Below are positions 6,064 through 62,660 of a stretch of DNA of 64,000 bases, in pieces. Below the pieces are notes generated by a model. It worked only from the letters and a program-made list of their open reading frames with translations. It searched no databases and had not been told where the DNA came from. The translations under genes were made by a program, and so were the position numbers. The stretch spans positions 4,340,001 to 4,404,000 of the forward strand of contig NC_049565.1 of the NCBI RefSeq assembly GCF_013368755.1. The letters run 5' to 3'. This DNA is from Talaromyces rugulosus. Lineage: Eukaryota > Ascomycota > Eurotiomycetes > Eurotiales > Trichocomaceae. Position 1 is the stretch's first letter. Each line of letters begins with the position of its first letter.

Positions 6064-7446
6064 TTATTTTGAATGGCGTACCGCAGTTAGGCTATTGATG
6101 TAATTTTCGCACTCACCCCAAGGAATTTCCATGCGGTATATGTCTAGGTTAACTTTCAGTTTTTGTGGAATACTTTTCCATTCTTGTATGTGAGTCTCCA
6201 GGTCCTTTGAAAGCTGGCGCTGCTGCCCTCCTGGTAACCTGACCACTTCTTGCATAAAAGCCTCTTGCCATCGAATTGATACGCAAGTTGAGCGATAAGG
6301 GTAGTTGCAAGGATTCCTCAGAGGGCCTCGATCTAAGAAGCCGTGATACATCTCTGCAAGTCCGAGATAACCTAGCCGTTTGCAGTCCCAGATGCAGAGA
6401 CCTAGATAATCCGGGAATTGAGGCTCATAGTTCTCTGGCTTTGGATGTTTCCACTTGTACTCAAACCAGAAATACCAAAGCAAATTTCTGAAACGACTAC
6501 TTTCTCTACTCACAAGATCACTGTGCTGACCGTCGTGCCAAGCCCTGATTCCAGTCATGGGTTTTGGTTCTTCGTATCGCCAGTGCGCAGCCTCTTCGAA
6601 AATAATAGATGCGCATTTGTTAATCCTAAAATTCGGGGGGGTCCAGCTTGTGAACGCGGTGAATAGGTGACATCGATCATCTGTACAACTCAAAAGGTCA
6701 CGAGTAGCTGCCAGCAGACACTTCATCTCTTCAACTTCATGGCCTAGGAATGTTTTATCGTTTTTAAAATCCGGTTCAAGACATGGACTAATGTGCCGAA
6801 TTGCCGCACAGTACTGAGAAAGCCTGTAGTCATCTTGATGGTTCGGATAGATGGCCTGAATATTCCAGTATATAATTAAGTGCCAAAGTGCCCGCGTTAT
6901 CCGTGTTTTTTCAACCCATGACGGAGACCACCAAGCAGCTGCCTGAAAGTCAATACCAGATTTTGATCGTTTTATAGAATAGAAAACGGATTCTGGTTCA
7001 TCTGTGGGTACAATGTACCATATCGCTTCATGAATGTTCTGGAGTAGAGAAACGAAGCAAACGTGCTGAAGTATTTCTATCCGGTATGCTGTGAGTACCA
7101 GGTAGCGAGGACCTGGTGTACCAGTTTCAAATGCAGAAGATGCTGGAGCTGTCGTAAGAACGTCTTTTGGCAGATTGTTGTACTTGTCCACTAAATCCTG
7201 AAAGGTGGGATGCAATGATAAAGACGCCGAAAATGATCCTAAAATAGTAACCATGCGAGCAAGGTGTTTGAATTCAGGGATTGAACGTTCTATTGCGCCG
7301 TCTAAAATCCGAGCAGGGCTGATTTCGAATGCTGCGTTAACCATCGCGGATGCACAGATGAAGGTGTAGATTGTTGAAAGATTTGGTGCATATTCAAGAA
7401 TAATGATTAACACTTCCAGAGGAAGACGAGAAAATGAGCTAGTCAT
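6064..7446 (-). CDS. F-box-like fungal protein of unknown function
   Basis: I chose the ATG at 7446, which gives 460 residues. The open frame extends further upstream only through a TTG codon. The protein begins with SRLPLEVLIIILEYAPNL, the leucine/proline pattern of an F-box helix, followed by a long region without repeats that I recognise. Tryptophan-rich stretches such as WSPSWVEKTRITRALWHL are typical of the many fungal F-box-containing or DUF-type proteins. If the F-box is real, it would dock Skp1 in an SCF ubiquitin ligase, with the remainder binding a substrate. No introns are needed. Codon use looks ordinary, and there is no obvious operon-like partner. Confidence 0.65.
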   Translation of the reverse strand: MTSSFSRLPLEVLIIILEYAPNLSTIYTFICASAMVNAAFEISPARILDGAIERSIPEFKHLARMVTILGSFSASLSLHPTFQDLVDKYNNLPKDVLTTAPASSAFETGTPGPRYLVLTAYRIEILQHVCFVSLLQNIHEAIWYIVPTDEPESVFYSIKRSKSGIDFQAAAWWSPSWVEKTRITRALWHLIIYWNIQAIYPNHQDDYRLSQYCAAIRHISPCLEPDFKNDKTFLGHEVEEMKCLLAATRDLLSCTDDRCHLFTAFTSWTPPNFRINKCASIIFEEAAHWRYEEPKPMTGIRAWHDGQHSDLVSRESSRFRNLLWYFWFEYKWKHPKPENYEPQFPDYLGLCIWDCKRLGYLGLAEMYHGFLDRGPLRNPCNYPYRSTCVSIRWQEAFMQEVVRLPGGQQRQLSKDLETHIQEWKSIPQKLKVNLDIYRMEIPWGECENYINSLTAVRHSK

Positions 7447-8160
7447 TTTTGTATCTGCTGAAAAGAGAAGTTTTGAAACGTACTGATACAGTTGATGCTG
7501 TTGACTCTTCAGCAGGCGCAACTATCAGGTGTCGATATGTATTAGAGGGTAAAAACGTACTTCACCAGACCTGACAGGAGTATAAGAAACTCAGTATGTC
7601 TCACCTAATGGTAATGGGCTTGCTAGTTACATCGAATAAAGATAACCGCTCAAGTGAAAGAAGCTTGGTGGCTATTTAAAATTGTTCAGAATGAGTCAGT
7701 AGTCAATAGGCAACCTCGTAGTTGAGAGATAAAGACACTCGAAGAATCACTATGACGACAACTGGAAGAACATTACCTCAGAACATCAGAGTGAATTTAT
7801 ACTTTAGAAATAATCTTAACTCTCAGAAATTTAAGAATCTAAGAATCTAACTCCAAGTGACAAACTATACACAGTAACAACCCGAACTATTCCAGTCGTC
7901 GGAGAGGCTGTGCTACCCCAGAAATCTTGCGATCGATTTACAAATACGTGCCAATCTCTGGGATTAGCTGGGACAATTTGTAAGGTAGCAAGTTACAGTA
8001 AATAAAACCATAGATCTAGTAGAGAAATCATATGTTTTGGTGTGTAGATGAAAGATGTAGTTCTAATACAGTGTTGAACCGTCCGCCCACACAAGTAACA
8101 GTGCAGCGTTATTCTCAATACACTTCATTATCATCGTCATTATCACCAAAGTATTTTAGA
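7447..8160. other. intergenic, no gene seen
   Basis: This AT-rich spacer sits upstream of the F-box-like gene. No open frame or splice pattern with coding character was found. Confidence 0.45.
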
Positions 8161-8350
8161 CTACCTATCAGCATCCGTCGAATCTGCCGAAGGGAAATCC
8201 CTCATCCGCGTATTAACCATATCCCAATCGAACTCTGTGCCCGAAAGCAGAGCATCATTGAACAATGTTGGATCGTAGTCAAATAGGCTAAGTTCAAGAT
8301 GAATAAAGGCCGCAAATTGGAGGAAGCTGTTGTAGGTGAATCCTTGCGAT
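8161..8350 (-). pseudogene. C-terminal relic of a fungal transcription-factor-like protein
   Basis: On the minus strand a frame reads FLQFAAFIHLELSLFDYDP, then GTEFDWDMVNTRMRDFP, and terminates at 8161-8163. This acidic, aromatic tail resembles the ends of fungal-specific Zn2Cys6 regulators. Immediately upstream the same frame meets TAA and TAG stops, some explicable by CAA-to-TAA changes, and no zinc cluster or middle domain is present nearby. I read it as a decayed fragment. It could instead be the end of a hypothetical protein from another family. Confidence 0.45.
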
Positions 8351-8578
8351 TATGATGGGTCGGTGGTGCTTTAGACATCCTAGTCTACATCCTGCTCGCC
8401 GTTAGGGCTATTCTGGGTACTGTATACAAAGGAAGGCCCTTCGGCCCATCAATAGCTTCATCCAAAGTGGCTGCGTTTCGCCGATTCTCCTACAAACAAT
8501 GGTCCAGGAGAGATTCGCTAAAAAGAAGACAACAGCTAAACCATAAATATCACTTCATACTTTCGATTCTAATTCAGG

Positions 8579-10714
8579 ATGAGATTAAGCAACCAAGGAA
8601 AATCTGACGCAGCTTTGTACTGGGGTCGGATGATCCGTATGTCGCGCGCCTTCCGTGCTCTGAAAATAGAAACACGTGAGTAGCGTGTCTACCTGCCCCC
8701 CAACCATGAGGCCCTTCTCCCAGATTATTGGTCTTCTCTTTTATCCTTCGAGCACCGTTCATCGACCGAGTAAGTTATCGTTTATAGGCGCCCTTCTGTG
8801 TGTATTACAATACTCGTCTTTGCTAATGTTGGGTTTAATGATAGTAACGATCAGAGAAAAAGTAAGTAATTACCCCCTATCTCAATTGATAACAGTGGCT
8901 AACTTGTCTCGATCAAGAAAATCGTAAGCAAGCCAGACCCCGGTGCCGTCCACCACTCCTCGCAGCGATTCTCACAACGGTAGAAACGTGTGTGAAGATA
9001 TACACTAGACCTATAGCACTACTAAAGAAAACAATGGCTAACAATAGGCTCGTTCTGACAGCAACTTGCTACAGCCGTAAGTCTACTCCACTCTCTCCTA
9101 GCTCGGTGTTGAGCAGGGCCTAACTAACTTAATGGCAGAACGCCTGTAGGTATATCTATCCAGTGACTGGGTGTATCGCCCGATGCTTACATACTTGTTG
9201 TTACCTTACCAGTTATCGGACAATGGGTAAGCTGGCTACTCATCCCTCGATAAACAGTGGATGTTTTACGGAGGTGGCTAATGAAAGTCATCTGCTTTTA
9301 TTTCGAGTAGAATACAAGAAGAAACGTTAGTTGACTTCCCCAGCCATTACGTGAACCCTGCTAATGCTTACTTTGTTAAACCTAGCTTCGACTGTATACA
9401 GCCTTTATAGAACCTTGGATGTATCGATACTAAAGCGAAGATAGTGCGATCTGTGCCACGGGCGTGGCCATTCAAAAAAGCAATGTCCGCTTCGGGCGGA
9501 CGATACAGTACGATTTCCAGAACCGATTCTCCTACTCTGACGATTTCATGTCACTAACAGTTTGATAGGCGAAGGTACTTTGTGTGATACTGGGACTATT
9601 ACTGTGATCGTCATATTCTGACGCATGACTCCATGGCTAGGGGAAATGCCCTGTGGTAAGCGAGGGCCCTATATCTTTCTTGAACAATAACTGACAGCTT
9701 TGTTGGGTTCTAGGGCTCGGCGAAGGTATGTAATTCCTTAAATCTATTATCAGATTTGCAATAGCTAGCTGATACGATGATTTTTCAGCACTATGAGAAC
9801 ACGGTTGCGGTATTTATATTCTGAATCTTATCATGCAACATAGACTAATGGACAAGTTAGTTGCTGCAGTCTGAGATCGAGGTGAATTCCAAGTCATCCA
9901 ATAGCAGTCTAGTGTTTTCAATGCTAAACTGCCATTCCTATTTGATAGGAGTTAAGGAACCAGGTGCTCGTGAGTAGCAACTCATCTAAATGATATATGA
10001 ATATCAAGATGAACGTTGTTTAACACTCCAAATGCTACAGATGATCAAGGATCATATCGAAGTATGTGATTTTCAAGTTCATACCGAGGTCTGTATCATT
10101 AATCCCCAGCTCCAGGCAAAACTTTCCCAAGTACAGGTATGATTTCTCATTTTGTATAAGACTTGTCAACAAAACAGTGCTAACCGCAGTTACTGTCTAT
10201 AGTACTACACAGGGTTGAAGAATGTAAGCCCATTGTTTATTCCATATGCTGTTATGTGTAAATTGATCGTAGTAGGCCGCTACTCTGTCCGAGGCACAGC
10301 AAGCCCAACCAGCCCAACCAGCCGATGCCTCTGCAGGTTCTGCGGTATGTCCATTCAAATCGAACTCTAGCCATATCATTACTGATAGATATTAGCAGTA
10401 ATTATGATTTGCTTTTCGTGGTATGTACTAATTTTCTGATCGGTGAGTATACTGGGATGTAGCAGATATGCTGACATACGATTCTACTCAATCCTAAGTC
10501 GGAACCACTGGGGTAAGCACCTATAGATATCTATCAATTCAGTTAAACTAATTGAGTACGATGACGGTGTATAGTTTTCTTCTCCATTGAGAATGTAAGT
10601 TGATTTCAATCATACACAAATACACGGGCAGAAACTATCCAGATCACTAACCACGCTCTATAGGAGTTTCTATTGTTTATTTTTTATACTTTTTTTATTA
10701 AAAAAAAAGAATGA
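8579..10714 (+). CDS. microexon gene: CCHC zinc knuckle plus heptad-per-exon coiled coil
   Basis: About 25 exons of 4-97 nt are separated by 44-85 nt introns. My model: 8579-8675, 8724-8769, 8845-8861, 8918-8923, 8984-8987, 9048-9076, 9139-9145, 9213-9226, 9311-9325, 9386-9393, 9445-9507, 9569-9574, 9641-9655, 9714-9725, 9789-9809, 9861-9881, 9949-9969, 10041-10061, 10110-10130, 10203-10223, 10276-10344, 10389-10420, 10499-10512, 10575-10594 and 10664-10714. The sum is 651 nt (216 residues) in one frame. Exon 9445-9507 encodes CDLCHGRGHSKKQC, a CX2CX4HX4C zinc knuckle. Six later exons are exactly 21 nt and phase 0; five of them (HYENTVA, LLQSEIE, ELRNQVL, MIKDHIE, LQAKLSQ) make a heptad coiled coil. 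Next come an Ala/Gln/Pro linker and hydrophobic C-terminal segments. Most donors are GTAAG/GTATG/GTGAG, and many introns show CTAAC, CTAAT or CTGAC before the acceptor. The exon core 9386-10344 is well supported. The 5' end (including a 4-nt exon) and 3' end are less certain. Function is unknown. Confidence 0.7.
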
Positions 10715-10752
10715 ATTCCAAAGTTTTTCCGTTTTCCTAACTTTCTACTAAA

Positions 10753-12053
10753 TTATTCAAACTCGCTTGACGGTCCCATCATGATATTTAATCCCGTAAT
10801 TGATCCTCCAGTTGGTCCATTTAATATCACAAAACCATAGGCATCCTCTCCGTAGTCGTCTGTGCCATCAGTATTTTGTCCAGTCTTTGGTGGATCATGG
10901 TGTTGTTAGCTTGCTCATCGCTGTACGGCCACATGACATTGGAGGTAGAATTGTCGAAGTAGATTTCCCATAATTTCTTAGGGTCTACTGGCCAATCTTT
11001 CGTGTACTTACTTGGTGGAGAGCAGCAGTATGGATAGTATAAAAACCCTCCTCCAGGCGATGTAGCGGCCTGGCAGTTGTCTCCTTGGTAAGGAGGTGGG
11101 CCAAGAGCTATTACGACCTGAATCTGAGTGTCTTCGCATGCAGACGGATTGCAAAGTTTATTGGGATCCGTTGAGGCTCAGTCCGATGTAATTTCATTGG
11201 ACCAGTTGCATGTTGCGAATGTTTGGCTAGTCGGGCAACAGAGAGCACCTTTAAAGCTGTTATGGTGTGGGCTCCTGACCTTTTTGCCCTCGGAAACATA
11301 CTCATCCGAACACCATCTCTTCCCGTCCGGTTTGTCAAATCGGAGGGTCTGATACTCATATCCTTCGGGACATTTTGGATTATCTGAATATCCAAGTGGG
11401 CCTTGGCAACTTGTCCAAATACAATTGTCGATTAATGGTGTCGAGTCACAACAGAGTGACTGAGTCGATGCTGCGTGAAACAAGCACGCATCATTTCCTT
11501 TCTCATCTGAGGCTGTGTTACTGTTGAGCAAAAACTTTTTTACCGCAGGTATTTTTAGGCATGGCATCCCTCGGACAGAAAATGTGGTGGATTGACCCCA
11601 AAGAGCAACCAGGGGCCGGGAAAGGATTATGTGCCGTTGCAACTGATTGATACCCATTCGGACAGACCTGGTCAGGCCCCAGTTGGTCTTTGCTTCCGTC
11701 CGTACATTTCGTAGTGACAAAGCAATCCTGTCCCGTGTAAGATCCAAGCTCATGTGCAATCTTTTTCTGTTAGGCTTCTGTTGAGCCTTCTGTTGAGCCT
11801 CCGCCTTTTTCCATCTCAAGACTCGATATATCGCCCCTGAGCGCGTTTAGTGCGTCTGCCTCCCCGGTATCTTCATCAAGTGACTAAATCATCAGTCCAC
11901 TAAGGCAGCAAGATGAAAGAAATCCCATTTTGTCATGCCAAGACTCCTCATCATCATAAGAAACCCATTGGTCGCCCTCATACACGTTGTATTTGACGGT
12001 TGATGTAGAGTTATAATACGTATCCGGGACACCCGTTTCACTGCCATCTGGAT
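10753..12053 (-). pseudogene. relic of a GH18 chitinase (subgroup C type), C-terminal half
   Basis: Reading the minus strand across frames recovers the end of a GH18 domain (VKYNVYEGDQWVSYDDEESW, then SGLMI, a TAG stop where Trp is expected, then SLDEDTGEADALNAL). A cysteine-rich tail follows, with QDCFVTTKCTDGSKDQLGP, CPNGYQSVATAHNPFPAPGC, CPEGYEYQTLRFDKPDGKRW and YYPYCCSPPSKYTKDWPVDP. The final segment, DGTDDYGEDAYGFVILNGP, ends at a stop at 10753. This Cys-rich architecture is typical of subgroup C fungal chitinases, which resemble the alpha/beta subunit of yeast zymocin and usually also carry LysM and chitin-binding domains. Here the N-terminal half is absent, at least two frameshifts and one nonsense codon interrupt the frame, and no product is expected. 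It converges on the microexon gene. Confidence 0.8.
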
Positions 12054-19354: not shown

Positions 19355-22300
19355 ATGGCTTCCTGGATTCCCCAGCGGTTTCGTGTCGCTGCAGACGACG
19401 AGCCTGCTGAGCCGAGCTGGCTGCGACGCCAGGTGACGGCTTCTCTACAAGATATTTCTCGTCGAGCTTGTGCTCACCCAATCCACACAATTGTTGGCAT
19501 TGCTCTTCTTGCCAGCACCACCTACGTCGGCCTTCTTGAAGGCAGCATCTTTGACTCCTTCCGCACTCCTGGAGATGCGTCAGGACCGCTGGACACATCC
19601 TCTTTCCTTTATGGTAGTCGAACCCTTCGCCTCGGAGAACAGACCGCCTGGCGCTGGCAAAGCGAAGATGGCACATCCTCTCCTTCTGGCGATGTAAGTC
19701 ATGCTCTTGGTCGTGTGTTCTTGACAATGATTTTCTGACTATAACCTCACAGATTAGCCAGCATCTAGCACTATCTACCTTTATCTTCTCCGACGCATCT
19801 AACTCGAACATCCCGATCGTCGACGACATTGTTCTCCCCGACAATGTCACTGCCACCCCGGTCCCATATACTCCAAACGTCTTTTCTTCCTTCTCTCACG
19901 ACTCATCCATTGCCTTCGCTGTTCCTTTCGAGAGTCTTCCAGATTTCCTCAAGGCCGTGCAAGAGATTCCCGATCCCTCTACCGAGGACGAGGAGGGTGA
20001 GCAGCGGAAGTGGATTATGAAGGCTGCTCGCGGAAAAGGGTCTCGCCAGGCTTTCAAGGTCTGGGTCACCGAGGCCTGGAGCTCTTTTGTGGATCTGATC
20101 AAGGTAAGGAGCGAATATATCATAACCGTTACAGTAGTATACTAACTCTCTGTAGCACGCCGAAACCATTGATATTGCTATCATGACCTTGGGATATCTC
20201 TCAATGCACTTAACCTTTGTCTCACTGTTCCTTTCAATGAGACGCATGGGTTCCCAATTTTGGCTGGCGACTTCAGTCCTCCTTTCGAGCGTGTTTGCCT
20301 TCTTGTTCGGGCTTTTGGTCACCACCAAGCTCGGCGTCCCAATCAACATGCTGCTGCTTTCCGAGGGTCTCCCTTTCCTAGTTGTGACGGTTGGTTTTGA
20401 AAAATCCATCCTTTTGACCAAGGCCGTCCTTTCGGCATCCCTCAACGTCAAGGGCGGTGCCAATGCCAATACCAACGCCCGTTCCGCGAGGTCAATTCAA
20501 GAGAATATCGAACTGGCCATCAAGGAGGAGGGATTCGGCATAGTCCGGGACTATCTCATCGAGATTGGCATTCTCACCATTGGGGCAGCATCTGGAGTCC
20601 AAGGCGGGCTTCGTCAGTTCTGTTTCCTTGCCGCGTGGATTTTGTTCTTCGACTGCGTTCTTCTTTTCACCTTCTACACTACGATCCTTTGCATCAAACT
20701 AGAAATCACTCGCATTAGGCGACACGTCACCTTGCGCAAGGCCTTGGAAGAGGATGGCGTTTCTCGACAAGTCGCCGAGAATGTGGCCTCAAGCAGCGAC
20801 TGGCCCCAGGCGGACCCCAACGATAGCAAGACCACAGGCACTGTTTTCGGCAAGAAGAACCAAGCCGGCAGCGTGTCCAAATTCAAGTTGCTGATGGTTG
20901 GCGGGTTTGCACTTGTGAATGTAGTCAACATGGGCTCGATTCCCTTCCGGCACCCTGAACAAGGAGATGAGGGCCTTCGGGTCTTTTCGCGGCTATCCAA
21001 TGTACTGGCTGCGGCCCCCATTGATCCTTTTAGAGTCGCCGACAATGGCCTGGACTCGATTTACGTGTCTGCAAAGGGTCACAAACTGGAGACTCTCGTC
21101 ACCGTCCTTCCACCTATCAAGTACAGGCGTGAATATCCCTCTGTTCACTATGCTCGCTCGGACTACAACGGCCAAATGGATATTGAATACAGCGAGCAGT
21201 TTTTGGATGCCATCGGTGGTAATATGCTCGAGAGCCTCCTGAAGAGCGTCGAGGACCCCGTGATCAGCAAATGGATTATCGCCGCCCTAACCCTGAGTAT
21301 CGTTCTAAACGGTTACTTGTTCAACGCGGCGCGGTTTAGCATTAAAGAGCCTGAAGCGGCAGCACCACCTCCTGCTCCGGCACCCGTCCAGACTCCTCGG
21401 GTGGCCGTTGAATACAAAGATGACGGCGTAAAGAGAACCAAGGAAGAAGTGGACGCGATGTTGAAAGAAAAGAAGGCTTCTCTCTTGAATGATGAGGAAC
21501 TTATTGCTCTGTCTCTTCGGGGCAAGATTCCTGGCTACGCACTGGAAAAGACGATGGAGGACCAACCTATAATGACTCGCCGGGAAGCTTTCACTCGAGC
21601 TGTCAAGATCCGTCGAGCTACCGTTTCACGAACACCCGTTACCTCGTCTATTACTGAAGGACTGGAGACGTCTTTGGTTCCATACAAAGATTTCAACTAT
21701 ACTCTCGTCCATGGAGCCTGCTGTGAGAACGTCATTGGATACCTCCCCTTGCCCTTGGGTGTTGCCGGACCACTAGTTATCGACGGACAAAATTACTTTA
21801 TTCCCATGGCCACTACTGAGGGTGTTTTGGTTGCTAGCACTAGTCGTGGTTGCAAGGCCATCAACGCTGGTGGCGGTGCAATTACTGTTGTTCACGGAGA
21901 CGGCATGACACGTGGACCTTGTGTTTCTTTCCCAACCCTTGCGCGTGCCGCAGAGGCCAAGACATGGCTGGATTCGGAGGAGGGCATGAGAACGATAAAG
22001 AGCGCATTCGACTCTACCAGCCGCTTTGCCCGTCTTCAGATCCTAAAGACTGCTCTGGCCGGCACTTATCTATACATTCGATTCAAGACTACCACCGGTG
22101 ATGCCATGGGCATGAACATGATTTCTAAGGGTGTGGAAAAGGCACTTGAAGTCATGAGCACAGAGTGTGGCTTCAGTGATATGTCGACGATTTCTTTGTC
22201 GGCAAATTACTGCACTGACAAGAAGCCGGCGGCTATCAACTGGATTGATGGCCGTGGAAAATCCGTTGTTGCCGAGGCCATCATTCCAGGAGAGGTTGTG

Positions 22301-22899
22301 AAGAAGGTGTTGAAGAGCGATGTTGACGCTTTGGTTGAACTTAACATCAGCAAGAACTTAGTCGGAAGTGCGATGGCTGGAAGTATTGGTGGATTCAACG
22401 CTCACGCGTCTAACATTTTGACGGCTATCTTTTTGGCCACTGGCCAGGATCCTGCCCAGAACGTGGAAAGCAGTAACTGTATCACCCTTATGAAGAAGTA
22501 CGCTCCCCTTTTTGTTGTTTGATTTGTAAAATGACTAACATCGGACCTAGCCAAAATGGAAACCTCCACATCTCTGTGTCGATGCCTTCGATTGAAGTCG
22601 GTACCCTCGGAGGCGGCACTATCCTCGAAGCCCAGGGAGCGATGCTGGAGTTGCTCGGCGTCAAAGGCGCACACCCAACCAACCCTGGCGAGAACGCGCG
22701 CCAGCTGGCTCGGATTGTGGCAGCTTCAGTTCTTGCTGGCGAGCTCAGTCTGTGCGCAGCTCTTGCTGCTGGCCACCTGGTCAAGGCGCACATGGCGCAC
22801 AACCGTAGCGCGGTGCCTACACGCGCAACGACGCCTGTTTCAGCCGCCGTGGGCGCTGCTCGCAGCAGCGAAAAGCTCACCATGACATCTACCAAATGA
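19355..22899 (+). CDS. 3-hydroxy-3-methylglutaryl-CoA reductase
   Basis: Four exons, 19355-19693, 19753-20103, 20156-22497 and 22551-22899, encode 1126 residues, the usual fungal length. Membrane helices begin near residue 50, and a sterol-sensing-type block follows from about residue 240 ([18 protein letters not shown] onward). After a linker, the catalytic domain shows [37 protein letters not shown] (catalytic Glu near 783), [19 protein letters not shown] (NADPH site), [18 protein letters not shown] (catalytic Lys near 918), [13 protein letters not shown] (Asp near 994), [13 protein letters not shown] and the catalytic His in KAHMAHNRS. The last motif also carries the serine that AMP-activated kinase targets in animals. 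The enzyme makes mevalonate for sterols and isoprenoids in the ER membrane and is the statin target. All catalytic residues are present. The final intron splits the NADPH domain, and its splice restores [16 protein letters not shown]. Confidence 0.97.
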
Positions 22900-60817: not shown

Positions 60818-62660
60818 ATGGCTACCAAAGCAGAAATCCAGGACTACACCAAAGCCCTGGAGGTTTTGGAGAACGACTATCCAACCAGAGATGGTTTGGA
60901 TGTCGATGCCCTGCTTGACTCGGACAAGCACGGTGCCTTGACTTACAATGATTTCTTGATCTTGCCTGGCTACGTTGGTGCGATATGTTGCAAGCAGAAT
61001 ATGTGCTGGCCTCATTACTGATTCGTTCCCTAGGCTTTCCCGCCTCGGATATCACTCTTGATACACCGATCACCAAGCGGATCTCTTTGAAGACTCCTCT
61101 TTTGTCTTCCCCCATGGACACCGTCACCGAGCATAACATGGCTATCCACATGGCCCTCCTCGGTGGCCTTGGTGTTATCCACCACAACTGTACTCCTGAG
61201 GACCAAGCCGAGATGGTCCGCAAAGTGAAGAGATATGAGAACGGTTTCATTCTTGATCCTGTTGTTATCTCTCCCAAAACCACTGTTGCCGAAGCGAAGG
61301 AACTGAAATCCACCTGGGGATTCGGTGGATTTCCTGTGACTGGTGAGTTTTTTTCTCTTTTTTTTTTTCTCTGGATTATTATGATGTTTCAAACTCTTTT
61401 TATATAACTTTCGTTCCACCGTTAGCAGCGAGAGCTGCCATGTGGAGAACAAGATTTCTATCTGAATATACCCCAACACCACATATATTGTTATGGACTG
61501 TTAGATTTTAGTTCAAAAGACTGACAGGTTTTGAAACAGAAAATGGCACACTTCGCTCGAAACTCATTGGTATTGTCACCAGCCGTGATATCCAATTCCA
61601 CACCTCCGACGAAGATCCAGTGACCCAAGTCATGTCTACTGATCTCGTTACTGCCCCCTCCGGCACTACCTTGTCTGAAGCTAACGAAGTCTTGCGTAAC
61701 TCCAAGAAGGGAAAGCTTCCTATTATCGACAAGGATGGAAATCTTGTTTCTCTCCTCTCTCGCTCTGATTTGAGGAAGAACTTGCACTATCCCTTGGCTT
61801 CCAAGCTTCCCGACTCCAAGCAGCTTCTCTCGGCTGCCACTATTGGCACGCGAGAAGCCGACAAGGAGCGGTTGACACAGCTCGTTGACGCTGGCCTGGA
61901 CATTGTCATTCTTGACAGCAGCCAGGGTAACAGTATCTACCAGATCGACATGCTCAAATGGACCAAGAAGACATTCCCTGAGCTTGAGGTTATTGGCGGC
62001 AACGTGGTCACCCGCGAACAAGCTGCGAACTTGATTGCCAACGGTGTCGATGGCCTGAGAATTGGCATGGGCAGCGGCAGTGCATGCATCACGCAGGAGG
62101 TCATGGCTGTCGGTCGTCCCCAAGCCGCGGCCGTCCGCAGTGTTACCTCGTTCGCAGCCCGCTTCGGTGTTCCTTGCATTGCCGACGGTGGTATCCAGAA
62201 CGTTGGCCACATTGTCAAGGGTCTTGCCATGGGCGCTTCCACTGTCATGATGGGAGGTCTCCTCGCCGGTACCACCGAGTCCCCTGGTGAGTACTTTGTC
62301 AGCGGCGAGGGCCAGCTTGTCAAGGCCTACCGTGGAATGGGCAGCATTGACGCCATGGAAGACAAGAAGTCTGGCAAAACCAACGCTGGTACCGCCAGAT
62401 ATTTCTCTGAAAAGGATCGCGTTCTCGTGGCCCAGGGTGTCTCCGGATCTGTCTTGGACCGTGGTTCCGTGACCAAGTTCATTCCATACCTTGTCGCCGG
62501 TATCCAGCACTCGCTGCAGGAACTCGGTGTCAAGTCCGTCCAAGAGCTTCACGACAATGTGAACAACAAGACTATCCGCTTTGAACTTCGCAGTGGCAGT
62601 GCCCAGGCTGAAGGCAACGTCCACGGTCTGCACAGCTACGACAAGAAGCTCTACTCGTAG
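60818..62660 (+). CDS. inosine-5'-monophosphate dehydrogenase
   Basis: Three exons, 60818-60977, 61034-61342 and 61540-62660, encode 529 residues, normal for IMPDH. The first intron splits [14 protein letters not shown] and [11 protein letters not shown]. The CBS (Bateman) pair lies in exons 2-3 ([38 protein letters not shown]). The catalytic barrel shows [40 protein letters not shown] with the catalytic Cys, [20 protein letters not shown], and the flap [12 protein letters not shown]. The enzyme makes XMP, the rate-limiting step to GMP, and is the target of mycophenolic acid. The flap Tyr is retained, so there is no sign of the Phe change found in the resistant MpaF enzyme. The second intron (197 nt) has two possible acceptors, at 61527 and 61539; the latter gives the usual [13 protein letters not shown] pyrimidine-rich tract precedes the ATG. 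Confidence 0.96.

Follow-up and report, generated by a model that had tools for sequence, protein, structure and literature searches.

Can a fungal gene be built largely from exons only a few codons long? The question is raised by a locus at positions 8579-10714 of the window analysed here, a stretch of 64,000 nucleotides of the Talaromyces rugulosus genome (G000:C5:4340001-4404000; 35.76 Mb in six contigs), for which the original prediction had proposed a gene of about 25 microexons, with exons of 21 nt each encoding one heptad of a coiled coil. The locus is not new: the public model TRUGW13939_10024, made by others, already covers it, and this 156-aa T. rugulosus protein was exactly the one entry returned when the predicted product was used as a protein query. 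By computation, a chain of splice signals, a coding signal in the core and a common heptad register could be shown here. The splice statistics lend good support to a fungal gene composed mostly of microexons, and we think it rather probable that TRUGW13939_10024 is a spliced microexon gene encoding a small protein with a zinc knuckle and a coiled coil.

A chain of splice signals

Strong donors (GTANGT or GTGAGT) within 8579-10714 number 13 on the forward strand and two on the reverse. Introns were scored by donor, branch, acceptor and length, and a dynamic programme found the best intron chain with reading frame ignored; the splice weights were set by hand from general knowledge and from 23 introns that we found ourselves between long open frames, some of which may be wrong. 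With each intron penalized by 5 bits, the frame-free chain over 8401-10760 (+) held 22 introns and scored 105.7 bits, as against 22.2 for the best non-overlapping window (386 control windows, 264 kb, both strands), 16.6 for the best of 60 dinucleotide shuffles and 5.6 for the reverse strand. With the penalty at 7 bits it held 13 introns (41.3 versus 14.2 for the best non-overlapping window) and at 9 bits four (12.3 versus 10.2); the locus ranks first at all three settings, by a margin that narrows as the penalty rises. An initial penalty of 12 bits, at which only one intron of 2.2 bits was found (shuffles ≤ 0.9), was dropped as mis-set. Taken by part, the chain scored 38.4 in the 5' part, 50.2 in the core and 17.1 in the 3' part, while 300 shuffles reached at most 17.5, 15.8 and 9.2, respectively, so each part outscores 300 of 300 shuffles. 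This evidence is independent of any protein reading, and the intron-dense locus is a genuine feature of the sequence. YAG acceptors are found at 24 of the 25 introns in the model. Outside the locus, the best chain (L013:8321-9434, +) comprised nine mostly weak introns and 22.2 bits at the 5-bit penalty.

The 26-exon model has an open frame from the ATG at 8579 to the TGA at 10714 (660 nt, 219 aa). When models were sampled by splice and codon score together (3000 at each of three penalties), they had 19-25 exons, with at least 19 in all 9000. The 5' exons of 4-8 nt as originally drawn are not supported (see below). Junctions 9077-9138, 9508-9568, 9656-9713, 9970-10040, 10137-10202 and 10224-10275 each occurred in at least 0.96 of the models sampled at 5 bits. 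Less certain are the donors at 9575 or 9582 and at 9726 or 9730, the intron 9882-9948 (36%) and the acceptor at 10109 or 10115.

Extent of the coding signal

Codon usage scored with stops set aside supported exons 12-22 (p 0.001), and for exons 16-22 the observed score was reached by none of 2000 shuffles; exons 1-11 (p 0.19) and 23-26 (p 0.21) gave no such signal. Counting stops improved the latter two sets (p 0.002 and 0.03), an advantage that is to be expected because their exons had been picked for openness. This picking is allowed for by a permutation test in which exon bases were permuted and all frame-aware models re-summed: the observed score was reached in 0/4000 permutations of all exons, and in 22/4000 of exons 12-22, as against 610/4000 for exons 1-11 and 795/4000 for exons 23-26; the 11/200 obtained for exons 16-22 alone counts against coding there. 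Base composition follows the same division. In the core, the exons of the frame-free chain have a GC content of 0.492 and the introns 0.372, a contrast matched by 0 of 102 slid chains, while there is none in the 5' part (0.453 versus 0.451) or the 3' part (0.371 versus 0.370). Thus, since the codon scores, the permutation test and the GC contrast all single out the core whereas the splice chain runs throughout, the locus has splice signals along its whole length and coding support confined to 9445-10344.

Core microexons and their heptads

All core exons lie on the forward strand, and over 9569-10344 TRUGW13939_10024 has the same peptides as the predicted exons, its protein including AKGKCPVGSAKHYENTVALLQSEIEELRNQVLMIKDHIE and LQAKLSQVQYYTGLKNAATLSEAQQAQPAQPADASAGSA. 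The series begins with a 6-nt exon, AK (9569-9574; flanking introns scoring 10.7 and 7.6, or 8.9 for the latter with donor 9582, which makes the exon 13 nt), and goes on with a 15-nt exon, GKCPV (9641-9655; 7.6 and 12.3), and a 12-nt exon, GSAK (9714-9725; 12.3 and 11.5). Four phase-0 exons of 21 nt come next, encoding the heptads HYENTVA (9789-9809; 11.5 and 7.3), LLQSEIE (9861-9881; 7.3 and 2.1), ELRNQVL (9949-9969; 2.1 and 8.4) and MIKDHIE (10041-10061; 8.4 and 9.5). An exon encoding LQAKLSQVQ (10110-10136, 27 nt; or 21 nt and AKLSQVQ if the tandem acceptor 10115 is used) is followed by a fifth phase-0 exon of 21 nt, YYTGLKN (10203-10223; 10.8 and 7.5), and by a 69-nt exon, AATLSEAQQAQPAQPADASAGSA (10276-10344; 7.5 and 9.1-11.8), with which the public model ends. 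Around the LQAKLSQVQ exon, introns 10062-10109, 10062-10115 and 10137-10202 score 9.5, 9.9 and 10.8. The weakest of the series is the intron between two of the heptads, 9882-9948 (2.1, donor GTGAAT), which TRUGW13939_10024 uses too.

Six exons of exactly 21 nt had been predicted. Five are as described (9789, 9861, 9949, 10041 and 10203), but the sixth, at 10110, would need the weak donor GTACAG (4.4) to be 21 nt long, and with the donor GTATGA at 10137 (10.8) its length is 27 nt. The same exon qualifies the proposal of one heptad per exon: HYENTVA, LLQSEIE, ELRNQVL and MIKDHIE share one a/d register, but the borders of the predicted LQAKLSQ exon do not hold. These four consecutive heptads are hydrophobic at positions 2 and 6, filling 8/8 a/d places, as only 0.00025 of random heptad quartets do. 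The a/d pattern typical of a coiled coil is therefore present over several heptads, and it breaks after MIKDHIE. Judging by this register, a layout of one heptad per exon is plausible and, for these four, exceeds what chance would give. A wider scheme of multiples of 21 found no support outside the heptad exons. In particular, the predicted sum of 6 + 15 = 21 had left out the 12-nt exon at 9714-9725 and is meaningless, because that exon intervenes between those two exons and the heptads.

The zinc-knuckle-like exon

Upstream of the heptads, the predicted 63-nt phase-0 exon (9445-9507, +) is present, with a CCHC zinc-knuckle-like sequence, CDLCHGRGHSKKQC, of the form CX2CX3GHX4C. In six frames of 264 kb, CX2CX4HX4C occurs twice, here and at L024:9279. 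The motif at L024:9279 lies above the PF00098 cut-off in a whole-genome search; the knuckle at 9445-9507 falls below the Pfam cut-off (zf-CCHC_6, 11.4 versus 22 bits) and is not among the 112 places in the genome that match PF00098. No known domain in the predicted product exceeded its Pfam cut-off, and a sequence search of the PDB gave one match, a nucleocapsid protein, at chance level (E 0.37). All three reading frames of the exon are open, and the codon model favours one other than the zinc frame, which appears in 8-19% of samples. Elsewhere in the same genome, the open frames that contain fifteen equal-scoring zf-CCHC matches are 1462-1950 aa long, which fits what is expected of a multicopy retroelement.

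LLQSEIE, ELRNQVL and MIKDHIE were joined in 30-31% of sampled models, and together with the zinc frame in 3-6%. Both features are likelier than these frequencies, because the sampler made no use of the peptides of TRUGW13939_10024, the a/d register or the rarity of the knuckle. Comparison with the window shows that the public model shares the heptad exons, bypasses the zinc-knuckle exon by an apparent 342-nt intron and leaves the stop-free intron 10062-10109 (48 nt) unspliced; its 5' exons are in frames different from those of the original prediction. At the zinc-knuckle exon and the retained intron the public model appears to be wrong, which suggests that automatic annotation overlooks exons of this kind.

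The 5' and 3' parts

In the spliced 5' part (8579-9444, +), which combines the high chain score with flat GC and the unremarkable permutation result given above, the introns are 8770-8844, 8862-8917 (or -8928), 8988-9047 (or -9061), 9077-9138, 9146-9212, 9227-9287 (or -9310), 9326-9385 and 9394-9444 (+). This third of the locus may be 5' UTR, wholly or partly. A GC-rich stretch (8929-8987, +; GC 0.61) includes or adjoins the 4- and 6-nt exons predicted at 8984 and 8918, and is probably a single exon of 59 nt that replaces both; intron 8862-8928 occurs in 0.72 of the samples drawn at the 5-bit penalty. Another predicted 6-nt exon, at 8670, would require an intron of 33 nt and was not confirmed. 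A candidate start codon in favourable context (ACAATGG) can be read at 9223-9225 (+); via introns 9227-9310, 9326-9385 and 9394-9444 it would be in frame with the knuckle and would yield MEYKKKPSTCDLC... At the extreme 5' end, a consensus branch and acceptor (CTAATTCAG, 8572-8577) are separated by a single base from the predicted start codon; no good donor was seen close by upstream, and there may be an exon further upstream.

On the 3' side, an intron at 10345-10401 (+) has tandem acceptors at 10388, 10395 and 10398 (scores 9.1, 11.2 and 11.8). The acceptor at 10388 reads on, that at 10395 leads to SAQ-stop and that at 10398 to SA-stop, as TRUGW13939_10024 ends; a hydrophobic C-terminal stretch results only from 10388. 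The part beyond (10402-10714, +) contains introns 10421-10462 (or -10465, -10498), 10513-10574 and 10595-10663, and here too a chain exceeding all 300 shuffles (17.1 versus 9.2) goes with flat GC and a permutation score reached in 795/4000. It may be a 3' UTR that contains introns, or else a read-on C-terminus that runs to the TGA at 10712-10714. Reading on to 10714 was sampled 2847, 2569 and 1513 times in 3000 at 4, 5 and 6 bits, and the stop at 10401, as in the public model, 39, 264 and 1316 times; in earlier sampling, which lacked the 38-nt minimum intron length, 10714 was preferred at 3 and 5 bits, and the stop at 10401 at 7 bits.

Relatives and origin

Searches of 5.77 billion proteins with three queries (the complete model, its core and a model with an alternative 5' part) produced 117, 1 and 69 candidates, respectively, and returned TRUGW13939_10024 only. 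As evidence of a lineage-specific gene this null result is weak, since any mis-annotated relatives would have few five-residue words in common with the queries. In its own genome no paralogue was found: the product gave six matches at E ≤ 10, five being its own exons and one at chance level (E 1.42), in a search that is weak for exons this small; the DNA of 9400-10300 had no second genome match in a search that skips very common words and excluded the rest of the locus. Tandem duplication of the heptad exons finds a hint in one of 15 pairs, E17/E19 (12/21 identical, p 0.0004 uncorrected), and in the summed identity (p 0.046), the introns being dissimilar; this likeness says little about duplication, because the heptad constraint alone could produce it. 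Recent introners were rejected as a source of the introns, which are dissimilar (best pair score 22, versus maxima of 18-25 in 20 shuffled sets) and do not include near-identical introns in many copies, the mark of an introner burst.

A proposed gene and its rivals

In the reading that we favour, a spliced microexon gene, about 18-25 introns, mostly of 42-84 nt, would be packed within 2.1 kb. The coding core, at 9445-10344 and with the ATG at 9223 as its possible start, would comprise about 100 aa in some 11 exons of phase 0, of which nine measure 6-27 nt. We infer that the locus is transcribed and spliced as modelled. In intron definition, exon size is unimportant, and the mode suits short introns with mostly YAG acceptors; the short introns here would be recognized in this way, leaving exon length nearly irrelevant. 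The predicted product combines a single CCHC zinc knuckle with a coiled coil of one heptad per exon and with an Ala/Gln/Pro tail, and might oligomerize through the coiled coil and bind single-stranded nucleic acid through the knuckle. As the core exons are in phase 0, in-frame skipping is possible, and skipping or the choice of tandem acceptors could alter the length of the coiled coil or the stop without a frameshift: those at 10109/10115 and 10388/10395/10398 could lengthen the product by two residues or shift its stop. A bolder version, that this is the first fungal micro-exon gene, in which splicing sets the length of the rod in whole heptads and tandem acceptors give the product either a soluble stop or a C-terminus that is hydrophobic, we regard as doubtful.

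Alternatively, the locus could produce a non-coding transcript with heavy splicing, in which the open frame owes something to chance and to selection among alternative splice sites. Its 5' and 3' parts are spliced with no convincing coding signal, three strong introns lie beyond the stop of the public model, the knuckle exon is open in all three frames, and the searches of 5.77 billion proteins returned no homologues. We nevertheless consider this unlikely, in view of the GC contrast, codon score and permutation test of the core, the knuckle motif and the heptad register. Nor does Rfam lend it support: over 7500-10800 there is no snoRNA and a single match far below threshold (21.6 versus a gathering score of 50 bits, E 4.6), in a collection that may lack fungal snoRNAs. 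Introns of 42-84 nt are, moreover, short for snoRNA hosting.

Less likely again, the gene could have about 12-15 ordinary small exons, several tiny ones being artefacts of wrong splice choices or of nested introns of the stwintron type, described in Aspergillus (PMC6616335). Many junctions do have near-equal alternatives, GC content speaks against the 5' exons of 4-6 nt, and the chain shrinks to 13 and four introns at the 7- and 9-bit penalties; against this, no sampled model in 9000 had fewer than 19 exons, and the frame-free chain has 22 introns at 5 bits. A recent introner-like burst fragmenting an intron-poor gene could account for a local intron density that is extreme relative to the sampled genome. 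It is highly improbable, given that the introns are unlike each other, that the DNA of 9400-10300 had no second match in a search passing over very common words and that random insertion would not predict the regular 21-nt spacing.

Comparison with known microexon genes

The exons of fibrillar collagen are of 54 bp. Our locus resembles these in having exon lengths that are whole numbers of a structural repeat in uniform phase, and differs in that each repeat is a coiled-coil heptad (21 nt), with only four clean copies. Among animal microexon genes, the MEGs of schistosomes are made up, for about 80% of the coding sequence, of symmetric exons of 6-36 bp, and their products are almost without exception secreted or membrane-anchored (PMC5825161). 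Short symmetric exon runs that permit in-frame skipping, and fast divergence that hides relatives, are shared with them; unlike them, the host is a fungus, and microexons make up 165/297 nt of the core and 192/660 nt (29%) of the whole model. Inspection of the predicted N-terminus by eye revealed no signal peptide, and an analogy with secreted effectors is not supported. Aphid bicycle genes, as described in PMC9168663, likewise contain many unusually small internal exons (on average about 17 exons per gene), nearly all of the internal ones being in phase 2; the 11 core exons here start in phase 0, and this is a single gene for which no family was found. In our reading, the TRUGW13939_10024 locus resembles animal microexon genes without having their defining features.

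The original prediction had also held that no fungal gene of this design was described. In the literature covered, which took in only a minority of subscription papers, no fungal gene built as a microexon array was found, but fungal microexons as such are known. Xlr2 of Trichoderma virens has a 20-nt switch exon with condition-dependent inclusion, and its authors state that no functional microexons had been described earlier in filamentous fungi (PMC11121469); P450 genes of Phanerochaete contain exons of 2-10 aa (PMC1184071). As far as these sources go, those are single microexons in ordinary genes, whereas here about nine are consecutive. If transcripts confirm the model, microexon arrays, which the sources cited above describe for schistosome and aphid genes, would extend to a fungus. 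Intron-definition splicing should make tiny exons cheap in fungi, and the locus, if the reading is true, would be a simple model, in a culturable host, for the origin of exon-per-repeat genes and for in-frame skipping of fungal microexons.

Open frames elsewhere in the window include one of 485 aa upstream on the opposite strand (6064-7521, -), with no Pfam family at E ≤ 0.001, an HMG-CoA reductase with a sterol-sensing domain (20156-22522, +) and an IMP dehydrogenase (61512-62660, +).
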